Shown: positions 322-58,352 of the stretch, piece after piece
Position numbering within the stretch: the first letter of the stretch is position 1
Layout of the letters: every line of letters starts with the position of its first letter
Source: Pontiella sulfatireligans
Lineage (GTDB): Bacteria; Verrucomicrobiota; Kiritimatiellia; Kiritimatiellales; Pontiellaceae
Length of the DNA: 64,000 nt
Assembly (NCBI RefSeq): GCF_900890705.1
Contig: NZ_CAAHFH010000001.1
Coordinates: 2,046,001-2,110,000 of the forward strand
Reading direction: 5' to 3'
Notes under the pieces: model-generated
Seen by the model: the letters and a program-made list of their open reading frames with translations, nothing else
What the model was told of the DNA's origin: nothing
Database searches by the model: none
Made by a program: the position numbers and the translations under genes

Positions 322-2385
322 ACTGCTTCCTTGTTCCTCCACCCGAACAAACTCCACCCCCGGCGCATGCTCGGCCAGATACTCATCGGAATGTTCCAAG
401 GTGTGGAAAACCCGCTCCACGCCCAGCCGAGTGAACGCATAGAATTTATGGGGAGGGATGCTTTTAATCCCGGCAATATTCAGCTCCTTGACCGATATCC
501 CATGCAGGCGCTCAATATCGTTGAATCCCGAATAGCTCACGTCCAGCGAATAGAGCCGCAGGGGTTTCAGCACGTTGGATTCATATAGAGGAACCGCGAT
601 GGGGAGTTGGAACAACGCATACTGCGTACCCGAAAGCGAAAGGTGCCAGCCCCTTGCATCTTCGGTTGCGTGCAGGGAGTGCTCTCCTACATCCCTATAC
701 GATTCGTAGTTCAGGATATCGAGCATTGTTTCCACCACGGGCAAAATTTCATCAGCCGGCCGCTTGATCGATTTATTCAAATAATAATAGGCGAGATAAT
801 AGTTCACCGCCCGGATATGCCGCTTCACCTCGAACAGCAGGTCGCACATATCGGACGGTTCAAGCCACTTGTGGTCAAGCGGCTTGATTACGGCATACTT
901 CTTCGCGAGTTGTTCGCAATCCTGATACCGTTTCACAACCTCGATGCGCCCAAAATATTCAGATGCTTTATTAAAGTCCTGCATCACAAAATGCAGCAAC
1001 GCCAGATACTCCGTCAGCGCATAAATCTTTTCCGGGTCGGTTTCTTGAGAGAGGTGGCTTTCAATGGCCTTGATCTTGCCCTCGGCGTGGAGAAAGTCCT
1101 CGGCGTTAATCAAGTCCATTGCCGTTGCTCGGATGCTGTCGCTGAGTGCGCGGGAATGCTCAGTCTCTTCAATGTAGAGGCGCAGATTATCTTCAGCCAC
1201 CTGTTTTTCGCCAACAACCTTTACGAAGGCAAAAACCACAATCATGCAAAGCAGCACAAACGAAAACATGGCTACGCGGAATGCTATCCGGCGCCGCTTG
1301 ATCAAAAGCTTGAATTGCGTGACCCACCCCGCATGCTGCGCCTCGGTGGCAAAGCCGAGCAGATAGCGATCCAGCTCATTGCGAAACTTACCGACCGATG
1401 CATAGCGTTCAAATGGATCCAGTTTCAGGGCCTTCATAACCACGGCTTCCAGCCCGAATTGGATGCCCTTCACCAGCTTCGATGGAGAAACAATGCCCCC
1501 TTTGAGCGTTTGCTCCGCGACATCGGCCATGGAGTCGCCCGTAAAAGTCGGGCGATGCGCGAGAATATAATACAGCAAGGCACCAAGCGAATAGATGTCG
1601 GTCTTTGCCGACACCTGCTGGCTCTTGCCCACCTGTTCGGGCGCCATGAAACCGGGGGTGCCTTTAATGGTTCCCCGGCGAGTCAGATCGTTAAGGATAT
1701 CGCCATTGGGCAGCTCTTCTTCCGGGATTCCCTCGATTCGCTGAGTATGGGGCTCATCCGACTGTATGATTTTTGCCAACCCCCAGTCGCATACAAGCAC
1801 TTCGCCGAATGGGCCGATGAAGATGTTAGAGGGTTTTAAATCCAGATGAACCACATTGCGCGAATGCGCATAGGCCACGGCATCGCAAATCTTCACGAAC
1901 AACTCCAGCAAGCGGAGCCTCGGAAAACGCCGCTCGTAGTCAGGATCGCCGGTTTCCAGTTTATCGACAATCTCCTTCAAAGTGCTGCCGTGGACAAACT
2001 CCATCGTAAAAAAGGCTTCGCCGTCCGCATCGAAGCCAATGTCATGGACCGAAATAATATTCGGGTGCTGCAGGCAGGCCGTAAGGCGGGCTTCGCGCAG
2101 GAATCCTTCTTTCTGTTCGGCCGATGCTCCTTCAATAGGACGCGCCAAGGCAACAACACGATCCGTGCGCAGGTCGCGCACCTTGAAAATCCGCTTTTCC
2201 CCGCCGGCCTTGACGAAAGTTTCCTCGCCATAGTGCTCTGGCACCTCCGACAGCATTTTAGAAATCGGATAGAGAAACTCTTTCTCCTCCTCGTCTGCGT
2301 CCAACCAGTCGCTGTCGTAAAGCTTTTCCAAACCGGCGATCTTTTCCGGCATTCCGTTGCTATCAAATGTTGGGTGGTGTTTCAT
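316..2385 (-). CDS. Membrane-anchored Ser/Thr protein kinase with atypical nucleotide-binding lobe
   Basis: The 689-residue protein has a kinase domain at about 55-355, a membrane segment near 365-390 (FSFVLLCMIVVFAFV) and an extracytoplasmic region with TPR-like helices and an LRR-like end. The catalytic loop HLDLKPSN (180-187), the magnesium motif as DWG (200-202) and TPGFMAPE in the activation segment are present. The glycine loop is not recognisable, and the VAIK lysine position reads VALAR (alanine 81, arginine 82). Glu98 of helix C is present. The ATG at 2385 is preferred to the upstream TTG at 2442, because neither has a strong ribosome site and the extra residues look non-coding. The stop lies in the end of the flanking repeat element. 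Substrates are unknown. Confidence 0.85.
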   Translation of the reverse strand: MKHHPTFDSNGMPEKIAGLEKLYDSDWLDADEEEKEFLYPISKMLSEVPEHYGEETFVKAGGEKRIFKVRDLRTDRVVALARPIEGASAEQKEGFLREARLTACLQHPNIISVHDIGFDADGEAFFTMEFVHGSTLKEIVDKLETGDPDYERRFPRLRLLELFVKICDAVAYAHSRNVVHLDLKPSNIFIGPFGEVLVCDWGLAKIIQSDEPHTQRIEGIPEEELPNGDILNDLTRRGTIKGTPGFMAPEQVGKSQQVSAKTDIYSLGALLYYILAHRPTFTGDSMADVAEQTLKGGIVSPSKLVKGIQFGLEAVVMKALKLDPFERYASVGKFRNELDRYLLGFATEAQHAGWVTQFKLLIKRRRIAFRVAMFSFVLLCMIVVFAFVKVVGEKQVAEDNLRLYIEETEHSRALSDSIRATAMDLINAEDFLHAEGKIKAIESHLSQETDPEKIYALTEYLALLHFVMQDFNKASEYFGRIEVVKRYQDCEQLAKKYAVIKPLDHKWLEPSDMCDLLFEVKRHIRAVNYYLAYYYLNKSIKRPADEILPVVETMLDILNYESYRDVGEHSLHATEDARGWHLSLSGTQYALFQLPIAVPLYESNVLKPLRLYSLDVSYSGFNDIERLHGISVKELNIAGIKSIPPHKFYAFTRLGVERVFHTLEHSDEYLAEHAPGVEFVRVEEQGSSM
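394..408. repeat. TTCCA-N5-TGGAA motif copy 1
   Basis: TTCCAAGGTGTGGAA, about 80 bp before the stop of the kinase gene, read there as codons for FHTLE. Confidence 0.8.
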
Positions 2386-2545
2386 AGTTTCCGTCAAAGG
2401 TACGTGAACCGTATAAGAATGGAACCCCGCCACCGACTCCAAATTTTATTCATTTTGCGAACCAAACGATAAAAAGCATCAAACCTTCAGCGCTAAAGAG
2501 TGTTATAGAGGAGAAGCGACTTCCTCAATAAACGGAGAATTGTTC

Positions 2546-4111
2546 ATGAAACAATGCAAAACCGTGGTCAGCCTGTTGACCATCTGCGCACTGGCCACCG
2601 GCATGGCCAATGCATCTAAACGCCCCAACATTCTATTCATCGTGACCGACGACCAGTGGCGGACGGAGTTTAATTTTCTTCAGGAAGGACGAGACGCCGA
2701 AGGGAAATCGCTGAATCTGACTCCGACCATCGACCGCCTCTCGAGCGAGGGCATTATTCTCGACCGGATGTATGCCGCGTCCACAGTATGCACCCCGAGC
2801 CGCTACAGCGTACTGACCGGCGAATATCCCAGCCGCAGTCAGGACAAGGGCTTCTTGAACGACATGGCAGAATTCGGCAACCAGCCCAACCCGCATTTCA
2901 ATGTGCACATAACTCCCGGAAAACCCAATATGGGCAACGTACTCAAGGCCAACGGATACTTTACAGGTTTCGCGGGAAAGAACCACGTGCTTAACGACGG
3001 AGCAATCAAGGTTCCGAGCATCACGAAATGGCGCGAGGCCGATCCGTTCGATCCAAAAACACAGGCCTTCCTGCAAAGCAAGCAGGCCGCCGAAGTTCAG
3101 AGCGTCCTCAACAATGGCTTCGACTATGCCGCCAGCATCTATGCCGGCAACGTCCCCGGCCATATGCCGATCAAGATGGAAGCGCACAACCAGGATTGGA
3201 TCACCAAGGGAGGAATCGACTTCCTCGACCTCGCCGCCAAGCAGGACAAGCCGTTCTATCTCCACTTTTGTTCCACCCTCAACCATGGTCCCGGCCCTGC
3301 CGGGCACAAGTATTCCGCGAATCCCCTTTTCACGCCCGGCGGCGTTTTAAAAGAGGAACTGAATGTCCAGCCTGGACGCAACACTATTCCGAAACGGCTC
3401 AAGGCTGCAGGTTATAACATCAAGGGCGACCACGCCGATGCCCTGTGGCTTGACGATGGCATCAATGCCATCGTTTCCAAAATCGAAGTCATGGGCAAAC
3501 TCGACAACACGATCATCTTTTTCTTTGTCGACAACGGAATGGAAGCCAAAGGGGCGCTGTACGAAGGGGGCGCGCATGTCCCTGCGTTTGTGTGGGCAAA
3601 AAACCTCAAGGGCGGATGGCGGACGGAGCAGCTGCTGGGCAACATTGACTTTGCCCCAACCGTCTACGACCTCTGCGGTATTCCCGCAACCAGCCAACCC
3701 AAAATGGACGGCAAAAGCTTTGTCGAAATCCTCAACAGCGTAAACAAGCCGATCCACGATGCAATCCATCTGCAGATCGGCTCCAGCCGCGCGGTGCTGA
3801 AGGACGGTTTCAAATATATTGCATGGCGTGTACATCCCGACCGCGAGGCCAACTTTGATATCCCAACGTCTGGAAAACCAAAATCGCTCTACCACATTGC
3901 TTCCACGCGCGGCGGGCGCAGTTTGGAAAAAAAGATTCCCAAAAACTATGCCTGCTACTGGGACGCCGACCAGCTCTACGATCTCGAAAAAGATCCCAAC
4001 GAACAGAACAACCTCGCCAAGAATCCGGAATACGCCCCAAAGCTGGCGATGATGAAGCGACTGCTTTCCGAGCAGTTAAAAGGACAACCCGGAAGCTTTG
4101 GCGAGTTCTGA
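2546..4111 (+). CDS. Secreted type I sulfatase
   Basis: This 521-residue formylglycine-dependent sulfatase hydrolyses sulfate esters, probably on a polysaccharide. A Sec signal peptide (MKQCKTVVSLLTICALATGMANA) is followed by the metal-binding RPNILFIVTDDQ. The modification signature is CTPSR, with Cys82 to be converted to formylglycine. The ATG at 2546 sits 8 nt after GGAG (2534-2537); the TTG at 2540 is less likely. It is divergent from the kinase, and its last 36 bp overlap the end of the convergent beta-helix gene. The length is typical for the family. The exact substrate and sulfatase subfamily cannot be set from the sequence alone. No maturase gene is present in the window. Confidence 0.93.
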   Translation: MKQCKTVVSLLTICALATGMANASKRPNILFIVTDDQWRTEFNFLQEGRDAEGKSLNLTPTIDRLSSEGIILDRMYAASTVCTPSRYSVLTGEYPSRSQDKGFLNDMAEFGNQPNPHFNVHITPGKPNMGNVLKANGYFTGFAGKNHVLNDGAIKVPSITKWREADPFDPKTQAFLQSKQAAEVQSVLNNGFDYAASIYAGNVPGHMPIKMEAHNQDWITKGGIDFLDLAAKQDKPFYLHFCSTLNHGPGPAGHKYSANPLFTPGGVLKEELNVQPGRNTIPKRLKAAGYNIKGDHADALWLDDGINAIVSKIEVMGKLDNTIIFFFVDNGMEAKGALYEGGAHVPAFVWAKNLKGGWRTEQLLGNIDFAPTVYDLCGIPATSQPKMDGKSFVEILNSVNKPIHDAIHLQIGSSRAVLKDGFKYIAWRVHPDREANFDIPTSGKPKSLYHIASTRGGRSLEKKIPKNYACYWDADQLYDLEKDPNEQNNLAKNPEYAPKLAMMKRLLSEQLKGQPGSFGEF

Positions 4112-6319
4112 TCGTCCTTCGCCCGTCGTAAACTTCCAGACATTGGAAAGCCGTTCACTTTCACCGGTATTGGCACCAACCCGCCAGTAGTAGGTCTTGT
4201 CCGGCTCTAGTTCGGGGGGATCGACTATGTTGGAGAAGCCTTTGATCTCTGCAATCGGCTTTAAAGCATCCGGGGACGTACCGAAGTAGATCTTGTGGGA
4301 ATCCATCTTGTACGCATGGAGAAACATCAGGTCAGTATCGAGAGGAACATGCTGCGCCCCATTCTTCGGTACTGGTGTAGCGGCGGTTTCCATTCTGCAA
4401 CCAGGAATCCAGTAGGTAGCGGCTCCGGCTTCATAGGCGCCGATATCGGGCTGACCCACGGCCTCGATTCCCGGAAACCGGATTTTCTCTCCGGGAAGAT
4501 CAGCGCGGCAAATGTTCACGCCCTGATCGATAAGCCCCGTCACATTTTTTTTTGGCCGAAAATCGAAGTTGTCGGGATCGCGGAGCAGGCGACGCACAGA
4601 TCCTTCGCCAGACATGTTAGCCATCATTTCTGCAGGAATACCGTTCGTCCGGCTTTTCATATTCCATTCAACCAAGTGGTCCACCAGATTGTTGCAGACC
4701 AGCGTATGTTCGTTGTGGACATCGGTTGCGCCAAATCCTTTCGGGATCGCCACGAAACAATCAAATGCCGTATTTTTCGCGAACAACTGATAATCGCCCT
4801 TAAACTTGTTGCCGCCAGTTCCATCTTGAACATTGAAAAAGACGTTCTCGACAACGGCCGCATCGGTGCCGAATGTGCTGGTGGTTGAATCGAACCGCAT
4901 CGCCTGCTGTTTGGTATCGTGCACCCAGTTGCGCCTGGCCACCGTGCCGGGTTGCGAAGGCGTGCCGATGTTGATGGCCGAGCCGTCGTGCTGCAGCAGG
5001 CTGGTGTTGTAGATATGGTTCCCTTCAATCGTTGATCCAGCTCCAAGACGAATGCCTTCCGACGCACCCGTGGTGTGTAGGGTGCAGTTTTTGACCGTAA
5101 CCCGATCGCCCCCTGCCAGCGCCCCTGCTCCCCCGCTGGAATTAACGACCCATTCAACATCGTGGACATAGCAGTTTTCCAACACCGCGCCGGAACTAAA
5201 CAGCCCAATGGCCGGGGAGTTTGGATATTCAATAGAACAATTCCTGACTACATTGCCGCAATCGCCCTCGCCCGAATTATAAATGAGCGTCATGGCGTTG
5301 CCGCCATCCGCCGGCGGCTTGTTGCTGAACCAGCCCAACTCTCCCAACACGAACTTGTGCGTGCTGGGATAAAGCAGCTGACTATCTTCGATCAACATGT
5401 TCTCACACTCATCCAACAGAAACGTGGTTGCAAAAAAATCGATCCCGATAAATTGCACATGCGCACAATTGCGGGCAACCAGGTTAAAATCGCGAACCTT
5501 GCCGCGCAGATCCGGCTTCTGCCCCGGTGCAGGCTTAAAATAGAGGGTCTTTGTTTTCGCATCGAACCACCACTCATTTTCATGATCCAGCGCCGGAAGA
5601 CCATAGAGGCAATATTCCAGAAACTTCAACATGCGCGTGCCTTCAGGATCATACGTAAACTGGTTGCTGCCCGCCTTATGCTCCAGCACCGGCCGCGCCC
5701 AGGTCAGCCAATGGCCAATATTCAGAACGGCAATCGCTCCTGAAAAATCTTTCCCGGTTTCAGCCAGCGTCTGTGCCCCGAAGCCCTCATGATTGCGGTC
5801 AAAAACAATACCCGGCTGCGTAACGCTCTCGGAACGCCCCAGTTTGTTGTCCCATTTCCGGTCGGTTGACCGCATGGATTTATGTACGTCCCAGATCGAA
5901 CCGTCACTGACCGACGCATTCGGCCACCGGGCAAGATCAACCGGTGTATTGCCCTCAAACAGCTGCCACATATCCTGCTCGACGGCTGTTTTGACGATGC
6001 CGTCTTCCCACTCATCCCAGTCCGGTGTTATGGAAGCAGTCCCATCCAACACCACGGTTTCATTCTGATAGGCCCGAAAAATGAATGGATGGTCGGCTGC
6101 CCCTTTCATCTCTTCGATTTCCAAGGGTTGGAAATAGGTTCCCCCCCGCACAAAGCAAATGTCCCCCGCCGACATCTTTTGAGCAGCAGTCTGCAATGAT
6201 GCAAAAGGCCGTTCTAAGGTTCCTGGAGAAACATCACTCCCTGTAGTTGCCACATAAAACTCTGCAGCATATGCCGATGCTGTGCAGAGCATTCCCGCTA
6301 TAATCGTCAAATTCTTCAT
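4076..6319 (-). CDS. Secreted right-handed beta-helix carbohydrate-active enzyme with Fn3-like tail
   Basis: This protein of 747 residues has a signal peptide (MKNLTIIAGMLCTASAYA). The N-terminus, EFYVATTGSDVSPGTLERPF, is typical of secreted parallel beta-helix glycosidases and lyases. DLARWPN near residue 135 and many N/D-rich turns (ENCYVHD, VKNCTLH, IEGNHIYN) support the fold. The last 90 residues resemble a fibronectin type III or Ig-like domain (PDKTYYWRVG). The fold resembles GH141, GH120 and PL6 enzymes, but I cannot choose among them. The ATG at 6319 follows AGGAAAACAG; an upstream ATG at 6343 would add eight residues before the signal peptide. The 3' end overlaps the convergent sulfatase gene. 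The fucosidase context makes a role in fucan breakdown plausible. Confidence 0.75.
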   Translation of the reverse strand: MKNLTIIAGMLCTASAYAAEFYVATTGSDVSPGTLERPFASLQTAAQKMSAGDICFVRGGTYFQPLEIEEMKGAADHPFIFRAYQNETVVLDGTASITPDWDEWEDGIVKTAVEQDMWQLFEGNTPVDLARWPNASVSDGSIWDVHKSMRSTDRKWDNKLGRSESVTQPGIVFDRNHEGFGAQTLAETGKDFSGAIAVLNIGHWLTWARPVLEHKAGSNQFTYDPEGTRMLKFLEYCLYGLPALDHENEWWFDAKTKTLYFKPAPGQKPDLRGKVRDFNLVARNCAHVQFIGIDFFATTFLLDECENMLIEDSQLLYPSTHKFVLGELGWFSNKPPADGGNAMTLIYNSGEGDCGNVVRNCSIEYPNSPAIGLFSSGAVLENCYVHDVEWVVNSSGGAGALAGGDRVTVKNCTLHTTGASEGIRLGAGSTIEGNHIYNTSLLQHDGSAINIGTPSQPGTVARRNWVHDTKQQAMRFDSTTSTFGTDAAVVENVFFNVQDGTGGNKFKGDYQLFAKNTAFDCFVAIPKGFGATDVHNEHTLVCNNLVDHLVEWNMKSRTNGIPAEMMANMSGEGSVRRLLRDPDNFDFRPKKNVTGLIDQGVNICRADLPGEKIRFPGIEAVGQPDIGAYEAGAATYWIPGCRMETAATPVPKNGAQHVPLDTDLMFLHAYKMDSHKIYFGTSPDALKPIAEIKGFSNIVDPPELEPDKTYYWRVGANTGESERLSNVWKFTTGEGRSELAKASGLSF
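4134..4148. repeat. TTCCA-N5-TGGAA motif copy 2
   Basis: TTCCAGACATTGGAA, 58 bp before the stop of the beta-helix gene, read as LSNVWK. Confidence 0.8.
6119..6133. repeat. TTCCA-N5-TGGAA motif copy 3
   Basis: TTCCAAGGGTTGGAA near the start of the beta-helix gene, read as FQPLE. Confidence 0.8.
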
Positions 6320-6378
6320 CTGTTTTCCTATAAAACTGTTCATACAAGGAAACTCCGCCGAACCGTTTTCTTTGATGA

Positions 6379-6384
6379 ATTATA
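6379..6384 (-). promoter_or_regulatory. Candidate -10 box for the beta-helix gene
   Basis: TATAAT on the minus strand, 60 nt before the ATG at 6319, in the AT-rich divergent spacer shared with the GH29 gene. I see no good -35 hexamer at 16-18 bp, so this is a weak call. Confidence 0.35.
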
Positions 6385-6483
6385 GTTTATTAGCTATTTT
6401 CCCGTAGAATGATCAAACAATCACCCGGTAGCGGGGTTGAATGGTTAAAGCACTTTATGAAAGCAATCCACAGGAGGAATTTG

Positions 6484-7986: not shown

Positions 7987-8012
7987 TCCTCTCCCCCATG
8001 CCATTCCGGCAG

Positions 8013-8027
8013 TTCCAATCTCTGGAA
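8013..8027. repeat. TTCCA-N5-TGGAA motif copy 4 (intergenic)
   Basis: TTCCAATCTCTGGAA, the only exact copy outside a gene. It forms the left arm of the terminator hairpin. Confidence 0.8.
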
Positions 8028-8051
8028 ACATCCAGAGATTGGAGAGTTTTT
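8013..8051 (+). terminator. Rho-independent terminator or attenuator between GH29 and sulfatase
   Basis: A perfect 12-bp stem, CCAATCTCTGGA (8015-8026) with TCCAGAGATTGG (8031-8042), has a 4-nt loop and is followed by AGAG and five T (8047-8051). Each arm is built on the window's TTCCA-N5-TGGAA motif. Confidence 0.65.
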
Positions 8052-8072
8052 CGAAACACCAAGGAGCGCCTC

Positions 8073-9877: not shown

Positions 9878-14504
<4,627 letters not shown>

Positions 14505-19011: not shown

Positions 19012-20577
19012 CTAGTCCGCGGCGGAGCTGCCCCACCAATCGGCATTGGGCTTCCAACCGGGTTCCAGATACCGGGCATGATCTTTTTCGAGGCCCTGTT
19101 GTTTTTTTGTGCGGGCATTTTCGACTTTTGCTTCGAATTTTTCTGTCGAGAAACGAGGGTCGGGTTTGGGCATAACGGCACCGGCATCGCTCAGCCAGGC
19201 ATTGAGTTTGCTTTTCAGGTCAGCCGCCTTTTCAGGATACTTCGATGCCACATCAGCTTGCTCTCCAAGATCGTCGGAAAGATTGTAGAGCTCATAGCGC
19301 CCGTCCTCGTGGTAGTAAATCAGCTTCCAATCCTTGGAACGGATGATGGACGAGGGCTCACCGCCCTGATTGCCATAGTGCGGATAGTGCCAGAACAGAT
19401 CGCGATCGGCAATGGTTCCGCCCTTGAGCACGGGCACAAGGCTAACGCCGTCAACGTGCTGCTTCGGCATCAGTGGCAGACCGGCCAGTTCGAGCATCGT
19501 CGGAAAAAAATCCATTCCGATTGCGGGCACCGGAGTAATCGACCCCGGTTTGGTCATGCCCGGCACTCGGATGTAATAGGGTTCACGAATGCCCCCTTCC
19601 CACTGGCGGCCCTTGCCCCCTCGGTATGGCAACAGGCTGGTCGCAAAAGCATCGCCCGAAGAAACGCCGCCGTTGTCGCCGGTAAAGATGACCACCGTGT
19701 TTTTATCGAGCCCTGTTTCCGTAAGTTTATCGAGCACAATGCCGACGGCATCATCGAGCGTCTCCATCATACCGGCATAAATCGGGTTGTCCTGTACCTG
19801 CCGCACCGGCAGCCGCCGATCGAACATAAAGCGCTCATCGTTATCATCCAGCCCCATCTTCTTCGCCTTCTCACGATATTTATTGCACAGCTCTTCAGTG
19901 GTCTGAACCGGGGCGTGCACAGCGTAGAAAGAAAGATAGGCGAGAAACGGCTTATCCTTGCTGGATTCAATAAAAGAGGCGGTTTCTTCGGCCAGACGCA
20001 AGGTCAGCGATTCGCCGGCGGGGCCGTTTTCGAGGCGAGGATTTTTCCACGGAGCGAAGAATCCACCCATGGGCGAACCCTTGCTCCATCCCCCCTTGTT
20101 GATTTCGAAGCCGTGGTCTTCCGGCCACGAACCTTCGTCGCCCAGATGCCACTTCCCGGCAAAAAACGTGGCGTAGCCTCCGGCGCGCAGCGCTTCCGCC
20201 ATCGTCGTCTCGGAAGCAGGCAGGTTGTGAACATATTCGGTCGGCATGACAGGATCGCCCCGATTGTAGGCCATGCCGGACTTGGCGCCTATATATTGAG
20301 TGATGCCATGGCGAGGCGGTGCCGTACCCAGCATAATGCTGGCACGCGATGGGCTGCAAACCCGGCAGGCCGCATAGCCGTTTTCAAACCGCATGCCCGA
20401 ATTCGCCAACACATCAATATTCGGCGTCTCGTAAAAAGTGCTGCCCTCCACGCCGATATCGCGAATTCCGAGATCATCTACAAGAATGAACACAAAATTT
20501 GGTCGCGCTGAAGCGAGAGCGACCGATCCCAATGCTAGAAACAACAGACCTGTGATTATGGATTTCTTTACGTTCAT
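19012..20577 (-). CDS. Secreted type I sulfatase
   Basis: A 521-residue sulfatase with signal peptide MNVKKSIITGLLFLALGSVALA, metal site RPNFVFILVDDLG and signature CSPSR (Cys74). IFTGDNGGVSSGDAF and WHLGDEGSWPEDHGF are typical active-site strands of arylsulfatase A-like enzymes that act on galactose or fucose sulfates. The C-terminal 50 residues are charged and end in two tryptophans (ADWWGSSAAD). GGAAG 8 nt before the ATG supports the start. It lies 46 bp before the M60 gene in the same unit. It carries one motif copy. Confidence 0.92.
   Translation of the reverse strand: MNVKKSIITGLLFLALGSVALASARPNFVFILVDDLGIRDIGVEGSTFYETPNIDVLANSGMRFENGYAACRVCSPSRASIMLGTAPPRHGITQYIGAKSGMAYNRGDPVMPTEYVHNLPASETTMAEALRAGGYATFFAGKWHLGDEGSWPEDHGFEINKGGWSKGSPMGGFFAPWKNPRLENGPAGESLTLRLAEETASFIESSKDKPFLAYLSFYAVHAPVQTTEELCNKYREKAKKMGLDDNDERFMFDRRLPVRQVQDNPIYAGMMETLDDAVGIVLDKLTETGLDKNTVVIFTGDNGGVSSGDAFATSLLPYRGGKGRQWEGGIREPYYIRVPGMTKPGSITPVPAIGMDFFPTMLELAGLPLMPKQHVDGVSLVPVLKGGTIADRDLFWHYPHYGNQGGEPSSIIRSKDWKLIYYHEDGRYELYNLSDDLGEQADVASKYPEKAADLKSKLNAWLSDAGAVMPKPDPRFSTEKFEAKVENARTKKQQGLEKDHARYLEPGWKPNADWWGSSAAD
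19325..19339. repeat. TTCCA-N5-TGGAA motif copy 7
   Basis: TTCCAATCCTTGGAA in the sulfatase gene, read in a frame that gives SKDWK. Confidence 0.8.
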
Positions 20578-34751: not shown

Positions 34752-37744
34752 TGCCTTATGATCTTGAGACGAATGAACCGGTTGGTGGTTCCAAGGATTG
34801 GAACGTCGTTGGTGACCGACTCAAAGACATCGTCGATCGCACCCGCGCCGCTTTCGGTATAGCCGGTGCTTTTCCAGTCGTTGGAAATCAGGTTGTCGGT
34901 CAGCTCCAGGGAATAGGTAATACCGCTGTCAGCCGCCGTACGGCGGGGATAGATGTATTGCATCGCCTCCCCGTTTGTTCCGAAGGTTGGCAGCATTCCG
35001 GTATCCAGCGAATTGGTTGGATTACCGCCCAACCCATACTCATAGAGGTTGCTCAAATCATCGTTGTCATCGTTTCCGCCTTCTCCTTCAGAAAGATTAA
35101 ACGACCGTGCCCAGTTTCCATACCCAAGGTTGAAAACCCGATTGAGATGTTTTGTACACGCATACAGGGTTGGCAAATGCATCGCACGACCCGGGTTAAA
35201 AAAGGCGTGGACTTCATCACGATAAATCAGGGCCGATGCGTTTCCTCCGGCCAGCTGGATCTTGTCCCTATACCGCTCGCTTTGCTGATGCTCAATCGTC
35301 GTATCGGCGGACCCGTGCAGCAGCAAGGTATCGGGCGGATTTGCCCGAATATTAAGCGCTGCGGAATTCGCCGTATAGCTCGGCACATTTTGCTCGAAGC
35401 TGGTTCCGCCGCCGAATGACCACGTACCGGTGCGGGTCACAAAGTCGTACAGACCATTAAAGCCGATATAGCAGCTGATGTTGGTATTGAGCTGTGAGAC
35501 CAGCGCGGACGTCGGTGTTCCGGCCGACCCGCCATAGAGCCCCATCCGGGAGATGTCGATGCCATAGGTGTCTGCATGAGCGATCACATACTCAACGGCC
35601 AGACCGATATCGGTAACGGCCTTTGAGAAGGTTCCCTCGGAATTACTCGAACTGCGCCATGCAACGTCTGCCACCGCAACGCCCAGCTTTTCACTCAAAT
35701 AATCACCCATCATCCCCTCGCCAACCGCAGAGCGCTCCCATGTGCCGGAGTTCCCGCCCGACCACCCGCCACCGTTGACCCAGAACATGACCGGGCATGG
35801 CTCATCGGTGGCCGGAACAAACAGCTTGAGCGGAAGAATATGCTCATCCCCGTTGTCGTGATAAACGATCGACATCGGATCAATCAACGTGGTGGTAACC
35901 GGATAGGTCACCCCGTTTTCGATGATGAAGGCGTAGGTTTTACGACTCGACGTTGCATAGGCGGTTCCCCCGGCCGAAACCACGGCATTAGGAATCTCAA
36001 CCATGACCAGGTCACCGGGTTCAAACGCCGGGTCCGCCGTAAAGGCAAACACAGTATCGCCCGCCGAAGCCGTCCACTGCCCCGTGGCACGCACCCAGTC
36101 ACTGTTTTCCGGAAGACCGTCAAGACCTCCTATGCCGACCACGACATTCGTGACGCTTGCGGGGTTCATCGCAATATTAAACGTCACTTCAACGGAGGTG
36201 TCCGCCGGCACGTCATAACCGGAGGGCGAAAAGCTGTTCACCGTGATCGCCTGCTCTTCGGCTACGGCATATTTCGCCGATAGCTCGCCCCAAACCGCCT
36301 CCCGTTCGAGGTCGGAAAGCGCCCGGCCATAAATGCGGATTTCCGCCACGTCGCACTCAACCGCCTGATTGAAGGCCAACGATTGCCAGCCGCAAAACAT
36401 GCCAATGGAAATATCAACGCTGCTCGGGCTCGGTGTAAAGGGACTTGTTCCGAGCGTCGCTGGATTTTCGAGCAGGCTACTGAACAGTTCCATGGTTCCG
36501 GTTCCGTCGCCCTCGTTGGAATAGCGACCGTTGAGCAGCACAAAATCATCGCCAAGCAGGGCTGTTCCGCCCGCCACATCGTTCCAGGCTCCATTGCCGA
36601 CCAGAAAGTGATACGAGCCGTCCGACTGCGCACGCAAGTTCCAGCCGTTCTTGTAACTCGAACCGGTCTGGAAGTTGCCGACAAAACCACCGGTGCCGGC
36701 GAAGCTTCCGCCTGTTGTCCGACCCACATAAAACACAGTCACTTCGTCCTCAAAAAGCGCATTCCCTGCGGTGTTGGTCAGCGTCAGAATATCGTCTACG
36801 CCGTCGAAATGAATGACTTGATGGCCCGGCCAGGCTTCATACAAAAGCGCAGGGCGCTTGGAGACCGTAGTTTGCACTGCATCGAAGGTACCCTGTGCGG
36901 CCAGATTCGTCCAGACGGCCACACGTTCATCAACCAACCCGAGTCCCTGGCTGGCATCCAGCCAGATGTCCGGAAGGAGATCCGCCCCGGCGACAGACTG
37001 AATGGTGAGGTTGTCGAAATACGCCCCAGAAGCGGAACTTTCGCCGGTTAACTTAATGTAAGCGAGTTCCGAATGGATTCCACCGCCGTAGGTCGGCAGT
37101 GTGGTGGTTTGGGCCGTAGTGGTTCCGTCCTGCTTGACCGTGTAAAGAGACCAGCCCCATGAGGAGACGGTAATTTCGAAATGCGCGTCTTTGGTGGAGA
37201 GAAGCCCATCGGTAGGGTTGGTGTCCGCGCCAAACCAATAGCTGCCGGGACTCACGCCTGCAGCAATCAGGTTGGAGGTGAAAGCATAGGCCCCGTATTG
37301 GTCGGCATATCCGGGACGCTGGCGGTCGGCACCGCCGTTTCCAAATTCATCCAGATCCGCCATGACAAATTGAAAGATCATGTTGTCGCCGGAATCATAG
37401 CCGGTCACATAGTGGCTTTTCGCTCCATTGTTGCGCCACCACACCACATCCAGCGACACCACCGCCGATTGACCGCCGGCGAGCGATACCGCAGACATCG
37501 GCGTCCACGTAATATCCGTGGCTGCAGCCCCGTCTGAGGTTGGATCGGCCAGCAGCACCTGACTGCCCAGCGTCGCATCCGGCCCCGCGGTTACCGCCGT
37601 CTGGACATTGTAGCCCGCGTTATACGTAATCGTGCCGGTATTCGCGTTCGTCCCCGACTCAAAGTCCGCTTCGAAGAGAACAGCGCCCCAGGTACTCGCT
37701 CCCACAGCCAGCAACAACAAACCTATAATATAAATCCGTTTCAT
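34748..37744 (-). CDS. Modular alpha/beta-hydrolase esterase with LamG-type domains and tail
   Basis: A secreted protein of 998 residues. Signal peptide MKRIYIIGLLLLAVGASTWG; an N-terminal beta-sandwich beginning LFEADFESGTNANTG that is nearly identical to the one in the 40210-45174 protein; a LamG domain (LPDIWLDASQGLG to ECDVAEIRIYGRALS); an Ig-like domain (SPSGYDVPADTSVEVTFN); then an alpha/beta hydrolase with an oxyanion-type WVNGGGWSG, nucleophile GGSAG, acid in HGSADTTIE and histidine in DEVHAFF. The tail contains NDDLSNLYEYGLGG and ends NRFIRLKIIRQ. It probably removes acetyl or similar groups from a polysaccharide. ATG 37744 follows AAAGGA. It carries two motif copies near its end. 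Confidence 0.8.
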   Translation of the reverse strand: MKRIYIIGLLLLAVGASTWGAVLFEADFESGTNANTGTITYNAGYNVQTAVTAGPDATLGSQVLLADPTSDGAAATDITWTPMSAVSLAGGQSAVVSLDVVWWRNNGAKSHYVTGYDSGDNMIFQFVMADLDEFGNGGADRQRPGYADQYGAYAFTSNLIAAGVSPGSYWFGADTNPTDGLLSTKDAHFEITVSSWGWSLYTVKQDGTTTAQTTTLPTYGGGIHSELAYIKLTGESSASGAYFDNLTIQSVAGADLLPDIWLDASQGLGLVDERVAVWTNLAAQGTFDAVQTTVSKRPALLYEAWPGHQVIHFDGVDDILTLTNTAGNALFEDEVTVFYVGRTTGGSFAGTGGFVGNFQTGSSYKNGWNLRAQSDGSYHFLVGNGAWNDVAGGTALLGDDFVLLNGRYSNEGDGTGTMELFSSLLENPATLGTSPFTPSPSSVDISIGMFCGWQSLAFNQAVECDVAEIRIYGRALSDLEREAVWGELSAKYAVAEEQAITVNSFSPSGYDVPADTSVEVTFNIAMNPASVTNVVVGIGGLDGLPENSDWVRATGQWTASAGDTVFAFTADPAFEPGDLVMVEIPNAVVSAGGTAYATSSRKTYAFIIENGVTYPVTTTLIDPMSIVYHDNGDEHILPLKLFVPATDEPCPVMFWVNGGGWSGGNSGTWERSAVGEGMMGDYLSEKLGVAVADVAWRSSSNSEGTFSKAVTDIGLAVEYVIAHADTYGIDISRMGLYGGSAGTPTSALVSQLNTNISCYIGFNGLYDFVTRTGTWSFGGGTSFEQNVPSYTANSAALNIRANPPDTLLLHGSADTTIEHQQSERYRDKIQLAGGNASALIYRDEVHAFFNPGRAMHLPTLYACTKHLNRVFNLGYGNWARSFNLSEGEGGNDDNDDLSNLYEYGLGGNPTNSLDTGMLPTFGTNGEAMQYIYPRRTAADSGITYSLELTDNLISNDWKSTGYTESGAGAIDDVFESVTNDVPILGTTNRFIRLKIIRQ
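34789..34803. repeat. TTCCA-N5-TGGAA motif copy 10
   Basis: TTCCAAGGATTGGAA, about 40 bp from the stop of the esterase gene, giving VPILGT (third frame). Confidence 0.8.
34872..34886. repeat. TTCCA-N5-TGGAA motif copy 11
   Basis: TTCCAGTCGTTGGAA, 83 bp from copy 10 in the same gene, giving ISNDWK. Confidence 0.8.
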
Positions 37745-40193: not shown

Positions 40194-40209
40194 TCAATCC
40201 GGATAAATT

Positions 40210-43200
40210 CTATTGATCTACCCGGAGCCGGATAAATTTATAATCCAGATCGTAGGCGATCAGAACCGCCACGGTTTCAACTTCGCCGTCGTCGCCGATA
40301 ACCACCTCAACGAAACCAGTGGTCCCCCAATTCGGAGGCTCCAGTTCCGGCGAATATTCCGCATAGACACTGATCCCGTCGATTTTGCGGCGGGTGTAGG
40401 TGATGATCCAGTTTGGATCACTGAACGTCATCGCCGTGATGGGCGAATCGGCAACCATCGGATCGGTGGCGAGGATCCATTCCAGATTGTTGTTGTTTGA
40501 GTCCCCGTCTGGATTGCCAGTTGCAAAGGTGTCCGACCCGCCCGGGGCTCCGGCAAAGGCATCCTCGGCCCATTGCTCGTACGGGGAAAGCATGTTGTCC
40601 ACAATCTCAATGTTGTCGATGGCCGGATCGGCCGAATTCCATTCCAGATTCGCCGTGCGGAAACGAAGCGTCAAAACGCTGGTGCCCGCATAGGCGGAAA
40701 GATCAACCATTGCAGAGGACCAGGCGGCTGCGCTGCTGCCGTGCTGCTGGCCGTTCTTTTTCCAGACATTGAGCGTCCAGGTAGAGCCGTTGAAAACATC
40801 CAGAGCAAGATAATCGATGTAGCCGCCGTACATGTGGTAGTCGAATGTCAATTCGGGTGTACTCGCCTCACTGAAATCGAAACGGGCCAGCACGGAAGCT
40901 GTATTGTTGGAACCTCCGGCATCATGACCTTCAGCATAGAGATAATATGTGCCGTCGGAAGCTCCACTCGGGCCGGCCGCACCACTCGGCGTTCCGCCGC
41001 TGCGGAGCGTCCAGTCATAGTCATCAGCAGCAACCTGCTGCCAATCACCCATCCCCGCCTCAAAACTTTCTGCATAGGGCAGCGAGATCAGGATCGGATT
41101 AACGGTGATTGAAACCGTGACTTCCGGACTTTCGGCCAAACCGTCATTGACGGTGTAGGTGAAGCTGTCTGAACCATAAAAATCTCCACCGGGCGTGTAG
41201 GTTAAATCCGGAGCGGTGCCGCTCAGCGTTCCGCCGGAAGGCTGTGTTGTAACCTTGTAGCTGAGAATGTCTCCATCGGCATCACTGCCGGACAGCGTAG
41301 TCGCGACTGCCGTGTCTTCATCGATTACGAAGCTCAGCGGGTTGGCAACGGGGCTGTTGGAGTTGTCTTCATCAATGCGAATATTATCAATGGCCGGGTC
41401 GGCCGCGTTGAACTGCTTGTTCGCCGGGCGGAAGCGCAGCTTCACATTGCTGTTGCCCGCATAAGCTGAAAGGTCAACCGCCGCCTTCGTCCAGGCCTGA
41501 TCACGGCCGGAATGCTGCTGGTTGTTCTTTTTCCAGACATTGGAAATCCAGGTGGAGCCATCGAAAACATCCAGCGCCACGAACGCGATGTAGTTGCCAT
41601 ACATGTGATAGTCGAAACCCAGCTGCGCCGAGGAAACCGTGCTAAAATCAAAGGAACACTCCACTACATTCGTTACATAGGATCCGGCATCATGCCCCTC
41701 AGAGAAGAGATAAAAATTGCCATCCGCCGCGCCATTCGGGCCCGATGCCGCAGTCGGTGTTCCGCCGGAACCCACTTCCCAGAACCGGTCCTGCTCATCA
41801 AACTGCCGCCAGGCGCCGATGCCCTCTTCAAAACTTTCCCGGTATGGAAGCGTCTGCACTTCCGTCAGGGTGATCGGCAGATAGTGCTTGATGAAACGGA
41901 AGTGCAGGTTGTCGTCCGTTATGGTATCATTCACGACATCAATCGCATTGGCGTTACTGATGCGCAGTCGTTTGCCCGTTGAAGGATGATCAATATAGAA
42001 CCATCCGTACTGATATTCGTTCAGCTCCCATTCAACCACCGTCCCGGTGGTGCCTTTCGCCGCGAGCCCGACGATGGAGCCATTGTATGAAAGGCGGCGG
42101 CCGTCGCTGAGACCGGTGATGTATTTATTTCCGCCCGGCGCAGCCTCGAGAATAAACTGTTCGGTGTCGGCGCGGTTTTCGACATCGGCAGTGCTCACCG
42201 TGTTGGAGGCCGGATGGTCGATCAGGCGCAGGAAACGTCCCTTGTTGTGAATAATGTATGACGTCTCATCCACGACATTGGCATTGCCGTCCCAGCCGGA
42301 CAGCAGCAGACCACACTCCGTCAGGTCTTCCCAGCCGGGATCCGAACTGTCGTTGTTAAAGTGCAGCGCCAGCCTCGGGGAATTCATATCGGTCGGGTCA
42401 TCACTGCCGGCATCCGTTGTTGCCGGATCCCCTCCGCCATTACCCCATTCAAAGAGGGACCATCTTTTTAACCACGGCAGGGTTTCCGCGCGCCATGCAA
42501 ATTCGGCTAGGAAGTTATAGTTGTGGTTGCGACTCCAGTTTGTCATCGTGCCGTTAAAATTGCGGGTCGAAAACTCCGTCAGCCAGATCGGCTTGCCGTA
42601 GAGGTTGTAGAGATACTCCATATTGCTGATGAGCGTGCTAGGGCTTCCGTCTTTTGCTCCTGCCGTCGAATACCAGTGCATCGCCATATATTCGGAGCGC
42701 AGGCCTTCCTTTTCGGCAATCGCCTCATAACCGGTTCGCCAGTAGTTTTTGTAGCCGGCCGGACAAGGGCCCAGCAACGGTTGCTTCATGCGTTCTAGGC
42801 GCGGCCATTGATAGGCCGCAACGTTCGTAGCCATATTCGCCTGATCATGCAGATCCGGCTCATTGAATCCCATCACCGTCGTCTGGCTGGCCCGGCCGTA
42901 CCATTCCGACTGATACTTCAGGATATCCAGCGCAGCGGCTCCGGCACCGCCCCACTGCATCGGCATATGCGGAAAATCTACAGGAACCTTTGGTTGATTT
43001 CTCCAGTCGTAGACCCAGCTGGGTTTGAACATGGAGCTAAAGTGGAAATGGGCCGCTTCGCCCTGTTTCGGGAAATGGGTTTCGTAGTTGATTTTCCAAT
43101 GTTTGGAAAACTCCGAACCGGCCGCCTGCTGCACCACATTGGTGCCGTCGAGACCGAGCACCATTCCGCTCCAGACATTTTTAATTTGGAAATACGTGCC

Positions 43201-49130: not shown

Positions 49131-51724
49131 TTCATCACATCTACTTTGGTAATCTCATATTCTTTAAGACGGTATTTCAAAAAAAGAAAATCGGCCGGCT
49201 GCTGGATTTGAAGGGGAGCACTTCCGTTTTCACCAAGGACAACGCGCCCTTTCCGGCCGGAGCGCAGGTCTACCCATTCGACCCTTTGCCCTTCCGCAAC
49301 GTTCATCAGCGGGATCAACTTATGGGTCTCTTTGTTTCCCCGTTCGCGGAAGATGAGCAGAAAACCCTCGGTGGAATCGGGTTCCAACCATTGGAAACCA
49401 CTCCATGCCGCTCCATTCGGATCATCACCAATGGCAAAGACATAGTGCTTGTACAACTCCTGCTGATACTTTTTGTAGAGTTGGACCAAACCCCGGACTT
49501 CGTTGCGCGCCTGACCTTCATAATAATAGGTTGTCTGAAAAAAGGTCGGGATGCCCATGAGTCCCAACGCGACTTCATAGGGGTGGCCATACAAATGCGC
49601 GTCGCTCTTCTGTTGGTTCACCCGCTGAAAATTTTGAATCGGCAGCTCAAACTTGTTGAGGTTAACGTATTTTGAAAGCTCGCGATTTTCGCGCAGCATC
49701 AGCGTCGGCTTCGGAATAGTGTTCGACGGATTTTCCGGTTTACGGTTCGAAAGCCAGACGCAGCCGAAATCGCGGGCCCAGAAATAGCCGAATCGCGGCG
49801 CATTTTCGGTCACATCCACCGCCATCCGGGCATTGTGACCCGTATAGAGCAGAAACGCGCGCAGCTTGCTCCAATGGCTGTAGAGATCGTTGTAGTTGGC
49901 AATGCGGGCGAAGTCATATTTCCACGTCACGAATCCGCCTTCGTCATAGTTGCGCTTCAGGTCATCCAGTCCGGCGTATGCCGCGGTCCAAAGCCCCAGC
50001 TTAAGATTTTTCTTTTTCGCTGCGGCGCGCACATTTTCCCAACCGGCGGGATACCAGTCCTCGCGGACATGCCAAGCCTGCGCTTTGTTCGAGGGTTGCT
50101 GTCTACCGCACTGCCAGCCGTCATCAATCTGCAGCACATCGATCCCCAGGTCGGCAACCGACTTGATCTCCCTGAGCACTTCCTTTTCTGAAGCCATGGC
50201 CATCGACTCTTCACCGCTGTTGCCGCTGCCCCAGGTATTGGCCTTCACGAACACATCGCGATTGGGATCGACCGGAAAGCGTGCACGGCCGAACCGCTTC
50301 ATCGCGAGTTGACGGGCATACTCCGTGTTTTCCGGATACAACACCGTCCAGGTGGCCCAGCACCAGCGGTATTCGTCCGGCATCAGATCAGCTGCCGAAA
50401 GTGCGGAGCCCGTGTTATGTAGTCCCGAAGCATCGGAAATAAATTCGCCGGTATCGACACCGGAACGGTTGACGCATTTGTGCGATTCCTTGACCCAGGC
50501 AATCCCGCCCTGCTTCTTTTCCACAAACAGGACACTGGCCCAATCCACCGATTTTCCGGAAAGCGCTTCTTCGCGAACCATGTGGTGATCCGGTGTGTGC
50601 CGATGCTGCGTATCGTTGAAGTATCCAAAGGCTGTTAATTGACTTCCAACCACCGGAAGAAAGTCCACGCGATTGCCATTGCCCGCCGATGCCGCCGGCG
50701 AGGGAGCAGACTTGCAGCCACAGTCAAGATAGGCCGCAAGACGGTAACCAGCGGGTGCTTTGCTTTTTAGTTCCGCCAGCCGTTTTTCATTGCCGCTCAA
50801 ATGTGGCTCCGAAGAAGCGTTTCCTTCTTCGTAGACCCAGAATTCAAACAGATGGGCATTCACGCCCTTTTCTTTCTGCACCTTAACTCGGACCATGTCG
50901 CCGATTCGGACTTCATCCGGAATATTGAAAACCACTTCCGCAGGCCTTTGCTGATCGCGGCTCGCCGGCAATTCCGTTGGCGGAACAACCTGCACCGCAC
51001 TTTCGCCATCCATACTTAAAACTTTAACGGACTGCGTACGCCTTTTCCCCGAGCCGGTATCCCACCAGGTCAGCATCGCTTTATAATTCCGGTCGCGCTT
51101 CATGCCCTCTATCTTCAGTTCAACTTCTTTCCCATGATAGAGAGTGGATGTGTGGTATTCGGGAGCAATTGAACATTCCGGCATGTTTGCAGGAATTCGG
51201 TGTGGCTTTCCTGAGGCCAACCCGATGGATACGCCATCGCCAGCAGCTTGCGTGATGTCACAACCTTCAGGATCACCCTTCAACCAAATCTGAGTGCGAA
51301 GTCCGGGAGCATCCGGATACGCCCAGATGACATATTTAAGAAAAGTTCCAGTGGCTGGATATTCGATCTCCGCCACCACTTCCAGATGCCGGGAGGTGAA
51401 ACCCTCATCGTCCGACTCTTCGGCGGTCAAAGAAAGTAGTTTGGCCCGGCCTTCGGCCAGCCCGGGAAAGTTCCAGTCAGCACGGATATCGACCGCCTGT
51501 TCAATCCACTCGTTTCCAGAGCGCAGATCGCGCAGGCCGCTGGTCGCCAGACCGCTTCCGGTCCATTTCCAGCGCCGCTCGACCAAACCCGACGAAACAA
51601 TAATCTCATCGTCGCCGGCCCGAACCGATGCCGCCCCGAGGGATTTTTCCAAGGGTTGGAAAACGCCTCCATACGAAGCCGACAGGGAGATGGATGCAAT
51701 AAGAAAGGTGATCAGCCGATACAT
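49127..51724 (-). CDS. GH36-like (clan GH-D) alpha-galactosidase-type enzyme
   Basis: An 865-residue secreted protein with signal peptide MYRLITFLIASISLSASYG. A large beta-sandwich (25-440) precedes a barrel with VLQIDDGWQ, LGLWTAAYAGL and FVTWKYDFARI; the aspartate in KYD matches the position of the GH36 nucleophile (usually KWDxN). A C-terminal beta-sandwich follows (GFLLIFRERGN). It has no tail module. The expected reaction is release of alpha-linked galactose or a related sugar; the family is inferred. Its stop overlaps the start of the GH128-like gene downstream, suggesting coupled synthesis. Two motif copies lie near its two ends. Confidence 0.72.
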   Translation of the reverse strand: MYRLITFLIASISLSASYGGVFQPLEKSLGAASVRAGDDEIIVSSGLVERRWKWTGSGLATSGLRDLRSGNEWIEQAVDIRADWNFPGLAEGRAKLLSLTAEESDDEGFTSRHLEVVAEIEYPATGTFLKYVIWAYPDAPGLRTQIWLKGDPEGCDITQAAGDGVSIGLASGKPHRIPANMPECSIAPEYHTSTLYHGKEVELKIEGMKRDRNYKAMLTWWDTGSGKRRTQSVKVLSMDGESAVQVVPPTELPASRDQQRPAEVVFNIPDEVRIGDMVRVKVQKEKGVNAHLFEFWVYEEGNASSEPHLSGNEKRLAELKSKAPAGYRLAAYLDCGCKSAPSPAASAGNGNRVDFLPVVGSQLTAFGYFNDTQHRHTPDHHMVREEALSGKSVDWASVLFVEKKQGGIAWVKESHKCVNRSGVDTGEFISDASGLHNTGSALSAADLMPDEYRWCWATWTVLYPENTEYARQLAMKRFGRARFPVDPNRDVFVKANTWGSGNSGEESMAMASEKEVLREIKSVADLGIDVLQIDDGWQCGRQQPSNKAQAWHVREDWYPAGWENVRAAAKKKNLKLGLWTAAYAGLDDLKRNYDEGGFVTWKYDFARIANYNDLYSHWSKLRAFLLYTGHNARMAVDVTENAPRFGYFWARDFGCVWLSNRKPENPSNTIPKPTLMLRENRELSKYVNLNKFELPIQNFQRVNQQKSDAHLYGHPYEVALGLMGIPTFFQTTYYYEGQARNEVRGLVQLYKKYQQELYKHYVFAIGDDPNGAAWSGFQWLEPDSTEGFLLIFRERGNKETHKLIPLMNVAEGQRVEWVDLRSGRKGRVVLGENGSAPLQIQQPADFLFLKYRLKEYEITKVDVMK
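49382..49396. repeat. TTCCA-N5-TGGAA motif copy 14
   Basis: TTCCAACCATTGGAA near the 3' end of the GH36-like gene, giving FQWLE. Confidence 0.8.
51647..51661. repeat. TTCCA-N5-TGGAA motif copy 15
   Basis: TTCCAAGGGTTGGAA near the 5' end of the GH36-like gene, giving FQPLE. Confidence 0.8.
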
Positions 51725-51813
51725 GAACTTTTACCTTCGTGTCTTGTATAATTCAATGGGCCGGAAACCAGCGTTCCGCCTGTCCCCGGCCCATCTTCAA
51801 CTACGAATTTCTA

Positions 51814-54198: not shown

Positions 54199-54374
54199 CG
54201 TGTTCCTCCTGATGTTTGTTGATTCTCTCGCTCTTATTGGAAGTTCCGGCTCTAAAGGCTAACGAAACTCCCACCTACATAAGCTCTAACGCCTGCAACG
54301 GCGGGATGGTGACACGGAGGTGAAAAAAATATTCTTCGCCCGCGAAACCCATCAATAGGGTTGTCTGATGGCAC

Positions 54375-57818: not shown

Positions 57819-57870
57819 TCATTTCCTCTTTTAGCTTCCACAATCCCTTAAACGCCGACTGCAAACCCAA

Positions 57871-57901
57871 GGTGACGCTGAATTTGTGCAAATGGTGACG
57901 C
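57871..57901 (-). promoter_or_regulatory. Possible operator: direct repeats upstream of the M60 gene
   Basis: GGTGACGC occurs at 57871-57878 and 57894-57901, 23 bp apart (about two helix turns), with a small palindrome ATTTG-TG-CAAAT between them. It lies 53-83 bp before the ATG. No regulator gene is in the window. Confidence 0.35.
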
Positions 57902-58008
57902 AAAACCGGGAAATATGGAGCTACCCCTGCAATTGTAGACAGGAACGCCTTCTGGCCGTTCATTTGCGGTGTTAGAAGCATTTCCGGTTTAGTTTGACGC
58001 ATTGCAAT

Positions 58009-58093
58009 GGTAGGGCGCGTTCGCCGAATGTGCCCCTCAGTCGCAAAGCCACTCGTGTGGACGGACGCCCCGGCGGTAAGGCCCTACCTTACC
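58009..58093. repeat. REP-like palindromic element at the sulfatase 3' end
   Basis: The ends GGTAGGGC (58009-58016) and GCCCTACC (58081-58088) are inverted. Inside, GGGCGCGTTCG and CGAATGTGCCC form an imperfect hairpin (58013-58035), and GGTAAGG (58075-58081) pairs with CCTTACC (58087-58093). The sulfatase stop codon lies within it, so the last residues of that protein (about YRRGVRPHEWLCD) derive from the element. Confidence 0.45.
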
Positions 58094-58337
58094 CCTTCCC
58101 ATCCAGATCCCGTGAGGATGCGACAAATTTAACGAGGATATGCGTTTTCGGAACGCATTGCGGAACTCGATCATGGCCTTTGATTCTGATCGGCATTTTT
58201 TTCGAAGTTGTTCGAGGGTTTCCGGGAACGCACCGGTTTCCATCAGATTAACGCGTTCTTCCGGATCGCGCTCCAGATCAAACAGTTGTTCAAAGACCGG
58301 TGTTTGATTACGGAAGTCGACGTCTTTATCGTCGTAG

Positions 58338-58352
58338 TTCCACCCTTTGGAA
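58338..58352. repeat. TTCCA-N5-TGGAA motif copy 16
   Basis: TTCCACCCTTTGGAA in the interrupted sulfatase, giving HSKGWN. Confidence 0.8.

Follow-up and report, generated by a model that had tools for sequence, protein, structure and literature searches.

The 64-kb stretch of the Pontiella sulfatireligans genome analysed here (64,000 nucleotides in full, called the window below) is dotted with copies of a gapped palindrome, TTCCA-N5-TGGAA, that are maintained by selection on the DNA itself. Among the genomes sampled, enrichment in this palindrome is limited to the window's class, Kiritimatiellae, and is patchy within it, and in several genera copies form arrays in which neighbouring sites lie whole helical turns apart. 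From these observations we infer a site at which dimers of an abundant, probably nucleoid-associated protein bind cooperatively to one face of the DNA, with an architectural role; our confidence in this reading is evenly poised. Literature searches, which covered open-licence papers only, found no published description of the palindrome, and we know of few bacterial DNA motifs so abundant, long and exactly spaced.

The window holds 17 exact copies, where 0.08 are expected (standard deviation 0.31; at most 2 in 100 dinucleotide shuffles), and 20 more sites that differ at one of the fixed bases, so that sites with no more than one mismatch total 37 against 2.65 expected. A preliminary description of this DNA had recognised the repetition, but it listed 16 copies, missing the one at 12249 and placing at 28107 the one that starts at 28106. 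It had judged one-mismatch sites to be about as many as exact ones, which is close to the 20 beside 17 found; of the six that it named, 25234 and 51855 were correctly placed, and those given as 8958, 12096, 43416 and 62787 start at 8955, 12099, 43418 and 62782. The window (G+C 54.1%) contains sulfatase, GH95 and lectin-domain genes, and its site density exceeds the genome mean (17 copies vs about 7.2 expected, Poisson p 0.001).

In the whole host genome (G000, 7,395,795 bases) there are 829 exact copies vs 9 of a reversed control, the motif read backwards (AAGGT-N5-ACCTT); a genome-wide count had been named earlier as a possible refutation, and it supports the finding. Congeners G001 and G009 have 2,237 copies (control 3) and 1,554, respectively, and the same genus has poor members, namely G004 and G101 with 20 copies each and G011 (1.2 Mb, 79% complete) with 6. 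We sampled 194 genomes of the phylum, 64 within the class and 130 outside it, and called motif-rich those with at least 15 copies per Mb. Within the class 25 of the 64 genomes reach this density (maximum 414), 3 have 4.5-15 and 36 fewer than 4.5 copies per Mb; the rich genomes are spread over ten families, three of which are mixed rich and poor. The largest count outside the class was 30, in G179 (3.5 Mb, control 5). Control counts were mostly 0-9 across the sample, the one outlier being G076, outside the class, with 55 reversed-control matches and no motif copy, perhaps another iterated palindrome or repeat. Named genome contigs scanned for pairs 29-34 bp apart yielded at least 117 array loci, and the titles among the 80 array matches listed are of Kiritimatiellae, Lentisphaerae, Verrucomicrobia(ota), Pontiellaceae, unnamed bacteria, a 'Spartobacteria' bin and a 'Firmicutes' bin.

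In its fuller form the site reads TTTTCCA-R-N-S-N-Y-TGGAAAA, the spacer being fixed at 5 bases. When 65 host sites from 464 kb sampled (window included) were read on both strands, 89% had A or G at position 5, and A was avoided immediately 5' of the site. The R-N-N-N-Y middle given in the preliminary description is correct but incomplete, since the centre is also near-fixed as C or G (60/65). Sites of G030 and of G016, a genome in a single contig of 3,882,676 bases (G+C about 0.53), tend to TTTTCCA-RNSNY-TGGAAAA, with a C or G centre in 63/64 and 103/104, respectively. When spacers of 0-35 were scanned only 5 was enriched (65 sites vs at most 4 at any other length in the host samples, 104 vs at most 6 in G016), and among all the 5-mer gapped palindromes scanned the motif and its own sub-frames were far ahead, ranking first in the host, G016 and G211. 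The same scan of 200 kb of motif-poor G198 found no alternative palindrome 'dialect', and residual matches to the fuller pattern were located in G004 (8) and G101 (9). Motif-poor G135, also scanned over 200 kb, has repeats around CGCACCC-N3-GGGTGCG, dispersed in both orientations; we rejected these as a dialect, since their flanks are shared and they are dispersed repeats of the ordinary kind.

Copies within genes are not accounted for by the encoded proteins. All three reading phases are used by the 59 coding host sites (21/17/21 over phases 0/1/2), in keeping with what had been said of the window, where peptides such as FQxLE, SxxWK and FPxxGN occur. When synonymous codons were permuted within each gene, the 58 copies observed in the host samples fell to a mean of 7.4 (largest of 60 shuffles, 13), and the corresponding values were 63 vs 9.0 in G016, 19 vs 3.7 in G211, 12 vs 1.2 in G030, 10 vs 1.1 in the syntenic part of G214 and 0 vs 0.7 in motif-poor G198. 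Since the shuffle removes most copies, selection acts on the DNA; shuffled means above the reversed control suggest that amino acids have been bent too. The Walker A motif of UvrB, read in 38 genomes, gives a second comparison: setting aside 13 genomes (5 rich, 8 poor) that do not encode F-Q-x-L-E, this peptide is spelled as the site in 15/18 motif-rich and 2/7 motif-poor genomes (Fisher p 0.017, an optimistic value in view of shared ancestry and of a place chosen for its sites in G000 and G016; 13/16 of the rich genomes without these two). In uvrB, G004 and G101 differ from motif-rich congener G051 inside the 15-mer solely by a synonymous leucine codon. Both comparisons bear out the earlier view that selection on protein cannot explain the copies.

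Between relatives, conservation of the sites is weak to moderate. In alignments of the window region to its syntenic counterparts in G214 and G005, 7/17 window sites aligned in G214, and 3 of these 7 retain all ten fixed bases there (9.3% expected at random, p 0.02), with 6/15 spacer bases changed; in G005 6 sites aligned and 1/6 is retained (p 0.39). In the reverse direction, 3/9 aligned G214 sites are retained in the window (p 0.04) and 0/5 in G005; among three G005 sites, a single one could be aligned to the window, where it is retained, and none to G214. Local alignments across a site were ungapped in 27/27 cases (four comparisons), and sites are therefore gained and lost by substitution. 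This bears on the possibility of a short mobile or duplicated repeat, of the repetitive extragenic palindrome (REP) or miniature inverted-repeat transposable element (MITE) type, which would agree with hundreds of dispersed copies, some of them arrayed, and with identical spacers in 62/196 neighbour pairs of the array loci listed. Besides the ungapped alignments, the copies inside reading frames speak against such a repeat, and so do host flanks that show no clear conservation past the first 2 bases per side and linkers that are distinct. Shared flanks and origin by insertion, looked for in host flanks, linkers and alignments of relatives, were not found, and we consider this explanation most improbable.

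The arrays bear on how the sites might be used. Spacings in several genera are mostly 21-22, 31-32, 42, 52-53 or 63 bp, which are whole helical turns. In G016, allowing one mismatch per site, neighbour spacing peaks at 22, 31, 42, 52-53, 63 and 83 bp, and phasing is strong (R=0.756 at 10.5 bp, which is also the best period; n=65 pairs, Rayleigh p about 8e-17), with R 0.734 when pairs closer than 40 bp are left out. R was 0.87 in G030 (n=84), in stretches chosen after arrays had already been seen there. Exact neighbours among the 117 array loci listed, which were selected for a pair at 29-34 bp, comprise 22 pairs at 21-23 bp and 185 at 31-32 bp, with none at 24-28 or 34-40 bp, and a few one-mismatch pairs in these loci have spacings that break the phase (27, 38 bp). 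In congeners G051, G005 and G211, 40/64 pairs fall no more than 1.75 bp from 2, 3 or 4 turns, against 20.6 expected for an even spread (binomial p 7e-7); this count omits G214 (112 pairs) and the host (18 pairs), G008 and G012 had no pairs, and three duplicate pairs from a G005 contig end were removed (41/67 before). At that end (contig C4, L444 4344-9514) a five-site array occurs twice in an inverted duplicate, with repeated open reading frames (ORFs) that look terminase-like by eye; we do not take this for an element but for a duplicated contig end, probably an assembly artefact. The 16-nt linkers between neighbours are distinct in 124/125 cases, and their middle eight bases match at 2.25/8, close to chance. 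With linkers thus unrelated, the ladders do not stem from tandem duplication of units.

Of the uptake, nucleoid-protein, segregation and modification roles listed in the preliminary description, the nucleoid-protein branch is favoured by this helical phasing of neighbours, which offers no reason to invoke methylation. A modification target like HIP1 of cyanobacteria, preserved through an orphan methyltransferase and the effects this has on repair, has in its favour that the palindrome is highly iterated and variable among relatives. In the portions of PMC4390886 consulted, HIP1 is likewise a highly iterated palindrome of one bacterial group, patchy among relatives, and it tracks methyltransferases; it is a contiguous 8-mer tied to these enzymes, whereas the palindrome here is a gapped 15 to 19-mer found in phased arrays in several genera. 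Its degenerate spacer and whole-turn spacing are thus unlike HIP1, and no replacement palindrome appeared in the 200 kb of motif-poor G198, so that we give modification a slim chance.

Arrays also occur on phage contigs. In viral contigs, which were viewed in part, 19 stretches have a site pair, and several of these are whole-turn ladders with C/G centres; other viral pairs, with A/T centres or odd spacing, look like chance. L243 and L244 carry phage terminase and portal genes, and L244 also a Mu-like protease; the ladder of L243 has 4 sites (3034-3164), with one further single site besides, that of L244 has 6 (2786-2946), and both end 0.6-0.8 kb before the terminase gene. L256 combines a Mu-type portal with a ladder of 4 (650-767), and L252, from the same contig, has a ladder of 3 (3429-3505).

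Such ladders speak for the protein-binding reading and count against the main rival, a DNA uptake signal, in which a competence receptor would prefer DNA with the palindrome, and biased uptake together with recombination would make copies build up. In its copy numbers, and in lying both within and between genes, the palindrome is similar to the uptake sequences of Haemophilus and Neisseria. Competence genes are near-universal in the class, with ComEC (PF03772) in 65/68 genomes and PilT-type ATPases (TIGR01420) over the curated cut-off in 66/68, copies lie in core genes of G016 (judged by eye) and in uvrB of many species, and copy numbers differ strongly among congeners. On the other hand, it is not evident what whole-turn spacing would contribute to uptake, and we know of no helical phasing of neighbouring DNA uptake sequences (DUS) or uptake signal sequences (USS). 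Nor does the presence of competence genes go with the motif: they occur in motif-poor genomes, and no ComEC match was obtained in G132, which has 418 copies. DUS and USS are like the palindrome in being abundant, species-dependent and both coding and intergenic. PMC1939737 gives coding shares of 65% and 35% in Haemophilus and Neisseria, and shows that the known uptake sequences, unlike the palindrome here, are not palindromic. The evidence has thus weakened the uptake branch of the earlier list, and we regard an uptake signal as rather unlikely.

Placement relative to genes was read with a codon-trained caller, uncurated, which replaced a first caller that had put many arrays inside ORFs. Most sampled host copies (59/65) are inside genes. 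Density in G030 is 3.49/kb in intergenic vs 0.08/kb in coding DNA (44-fold), and in G016 intergenic density is 4.7-fold that of coding DNA. Promoters are not preferred: in G030 site density is no lower in convergent gaps (10 sites in 2.25 kb) than in divergent gaps (10 in 2.98 kb), and sites in tandem gaps lean to the stop codon of the upstream gene and thin out toward the start of the next. Genes beside arrays are unrelated to one another, and no regulator family recurs there among 1,259 neighbouring proteins clustered, sulfatases being the most frequent family. Dimeric regulators typically bind a dyad whose half-sites are separated by one helical turn. The palindrome has this form, as would the operator of a very large regulon bound by a transcription factor at promoters. 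Coding copies in all phases, the pattern of gaps just described and the lack of a recurring regulator family beside arrays are at odds with it, and we think it improbable. As to a segregation site, the origin-terminus check showed no clear trend, and no strong bias, in thin samples (24 of G016, 12 of G211); six G016 samples from 3.0 Mb onward average 2.7 sites per 20 kb vs 4.9 in the other 18.

Arrays do lie nearer gene ends, as RNA hairpins or transcription terminators would. When folded as RNA, two arrays gave z -8.3 and -7.7, and neighbours in G016 have complementary centre bases in 8/9 pairs (p 0.04). In the window, 8013-8026 pairs with 8031-8044, and the hairpin is followed by TTTTT (-22.9 kcal/mol, z -5.1), so that at 8013-8051, in a 14-bp hairpin 27 bases 3' of a stop codon, a site has apparently been co-opted into an intrinsic terminator. 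Such a role is not general. The folding follows from the palindromes themselves, single sites fold at just -3.8 and -5.1 kcal/mol, and the host copies are mostly intragenic. In the array loci listed, centres are complementary in 77/191 neighbour pairs 28-34 bp apart, below half, and neighbours' spacers are more alike directly (3.78/5) than as reverse complements (3.06), with permuted spacers (2.4) below both. Terminators or hairpins at gene ends are thus very unlikely to explain the palindrome.

In the mechanism that we propose, a dimeric DNA-binding protein of the class Kiritimatiellae would recognise TTTTCCA-R-N-S-N-Y-TGGAAAA, with one TTCCA half-site in each of two major grooves that follow one another at a distance of 10 bp. 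At neighbouring sites dimers would touch one another or a shared surface, and this would lead to selection for spacings of 2, 3, 4, 5 or more turns. The protein would be a nucleoid-associated, architectural factor acting genome-wide by wrapping or bridging DNA, and not a promoter regulator. Several observations weigh against this. None of the families tested as reader or correlate (PF04014, PF00216, PF17762, PF03772, TIGR01420) tracks the motif. Host copies are mostly single, their phasing is not significant (18 sampled pairs; R 0.28 at 10.5 bp, best period 9.6), and intergenic sites are not enriched in the host (0.159 vs 0.138/kb in coding DNA). Pooled congener pairs have their best period at 8.65 and not 10.5 bp (R 0.45 vs 0.36; range 20-50 bp), and, as pairs within one array are not independent, the p values for phasing overstate certainty. 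Turnover of sites is fast (3/7 retained in G214, 1/6 in G005), and it is from the distribution of the sites that an architectural role is suggested. The most economical reading is nevertheless an architectural site to which a protein binds cooperatively, with an uptake signal as its main rival.

Candidates for the protein were sought among known systems. AbrB sites have TGGNA-type half-sites about one turn apart, but proteins of the AbrB/MazE fold (PF04014) are absent from the strong positives G016, G009 and G080 and occur in 16/25 rich vs 21/39 other class genomes, and this family was rejected as reader. So was HU (PF00216), present in 68/68 genomes, mostly in 2-3 copies, in rich and poor alike. 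Noc-binding sites are far fewer than copies of the palindrome. They too are palindromic, have TTTCC/GGAAA arms and are distributed around the chromosome, as PMC8429893 describes, but with no comparable gap between the arms. ParB/Noc proteins (PF17762) gave one strong HTH_ParB match in 40/42 genomes, rich and poor alike, and were also rejected; the motif-rich genomes G001 and G018 have only a weak match and none, respectively, and no motif-rich genome among the 42 has an extra strong ParB-family paralogue besides ParB.

A close likeness is to the Lrp/AsnC family. According to the sections of PMC4046817 and PMC2995911 consulted, the Ss-LrpB site is a 15-bp palindrome of 5+5+5 build (TTGCAAAATTTGCAA), and Ss-LrpB and Lrp/AsnC proteins act as cooperative, DNA-wrapping dimers on sites with centres two or three turns apart. 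The half-site is TTGCA there and TTCCA here, and the palindrome differs further in its near-fixed C/G centre and in its hundreds to thousands of exact copies. Palindromes at two or three turns, the operator feature of this family, were found, together with others at 4, 5 and 6 turns, and the host's 18 pairs were not significant. One or two Lrp/AsnC proteins (PF01037) are encoded by 25/25 rich and 33/39 other class genomes, the six without being all motif-poor (Fisher p 0.07, not significant). The presumed recognition helix, read in 20 of the 66 genomes with a match, differs between rich families, and that of motif-poor G004 and G101 is nearly that of their rich congeners; helix-turn-helix matches were weak in several of 6 proteins examined. 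A Lrp/AsnC protein as reader therefore fits only partly, with the recognition helix arguing against it; the site arrays work like an Lrp operator array and are at most candidate members of that system. In two genomes of family f3 an HU gene adjoins the Lrp/AsnC gene (G038:C9:264390-265157; G025:C9:45551-46319).

The individual sites of the window illustrate this variety of contexts. The first, at 394..408, is within a kinase-domain gene (316-2442, minus strand) in phase 0 (FHTLE), and those at 4134..4148, in the SxxWK phase, and 6119..6133, read as FQPLE, share an ORF at 4076-6343 (minus strand). The site at 8013..8027 lies just 3' of gene 6409-7986, outside genes for the codon-trained caller, though a longer ORF (7998-9539) overlaps it. 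Next come 10883..10897 (FQSLE), which retains all ten fixed bases in G214 with a changed spacer, 10986..11000 (SxxWN phase), not retained in G214, and 12249..12263, the copy absent from the earlier list. The site at 19325..19339 (SKDWK) is within ORF 19012-20577 (minus strand), sulfatase-like by eye. Both 26635..26649 (FPGSGN phase) and 28106..28120 (FQGLE) are retained in G214 and not in G005. The sites at 34789..34803 and 34872..34886 (the latter ISNDWK) are 83 bp apart, about eight helical turns. Not retained in G005 are 41531..41545 (ISNVWK), 43094..43108 (FSKHWK) and 49382..49396 (FQWLE); retained there is 51647..51661 (FQPLE). The last, 58338..58352, is within a sulfatase gene (58037-59551, minus strand). 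A DDE transposase gene (PF01609) at 60135-61361 contains no exact copy. Elsewhere, arrays themselves generate spurious ORFs (L065 2706-2873, reading FPIIGK/FPNHWK/FQSLEN), and gene callers may annotate false proteins in the class.

Taken further, and put forward only tentatively, the palindromes might belong to a sequence-addressed chromosome-organising system without known counterpart, in which an abundant protein would build regular nucleoprotein arrays on hundreds to thousands of 15 to 19-bp palindromes, which selection has put even into protein genes and which in several genera stand in helically phased ladders; some phages have ladders of this kind as well. If a nucleoid protein reads the palindrome, the positions of its sites would be a readable genome-wide map of that protein in cultured Pontiella and Tichowtungia, with relatives that lack the motif as natural controls. 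If the palindrome is an uptake signal, the phenomenon would be extended to a palindromic signal in another phylum. On either reading, the motif opens a large and little-studied group of bacteria to experiment.

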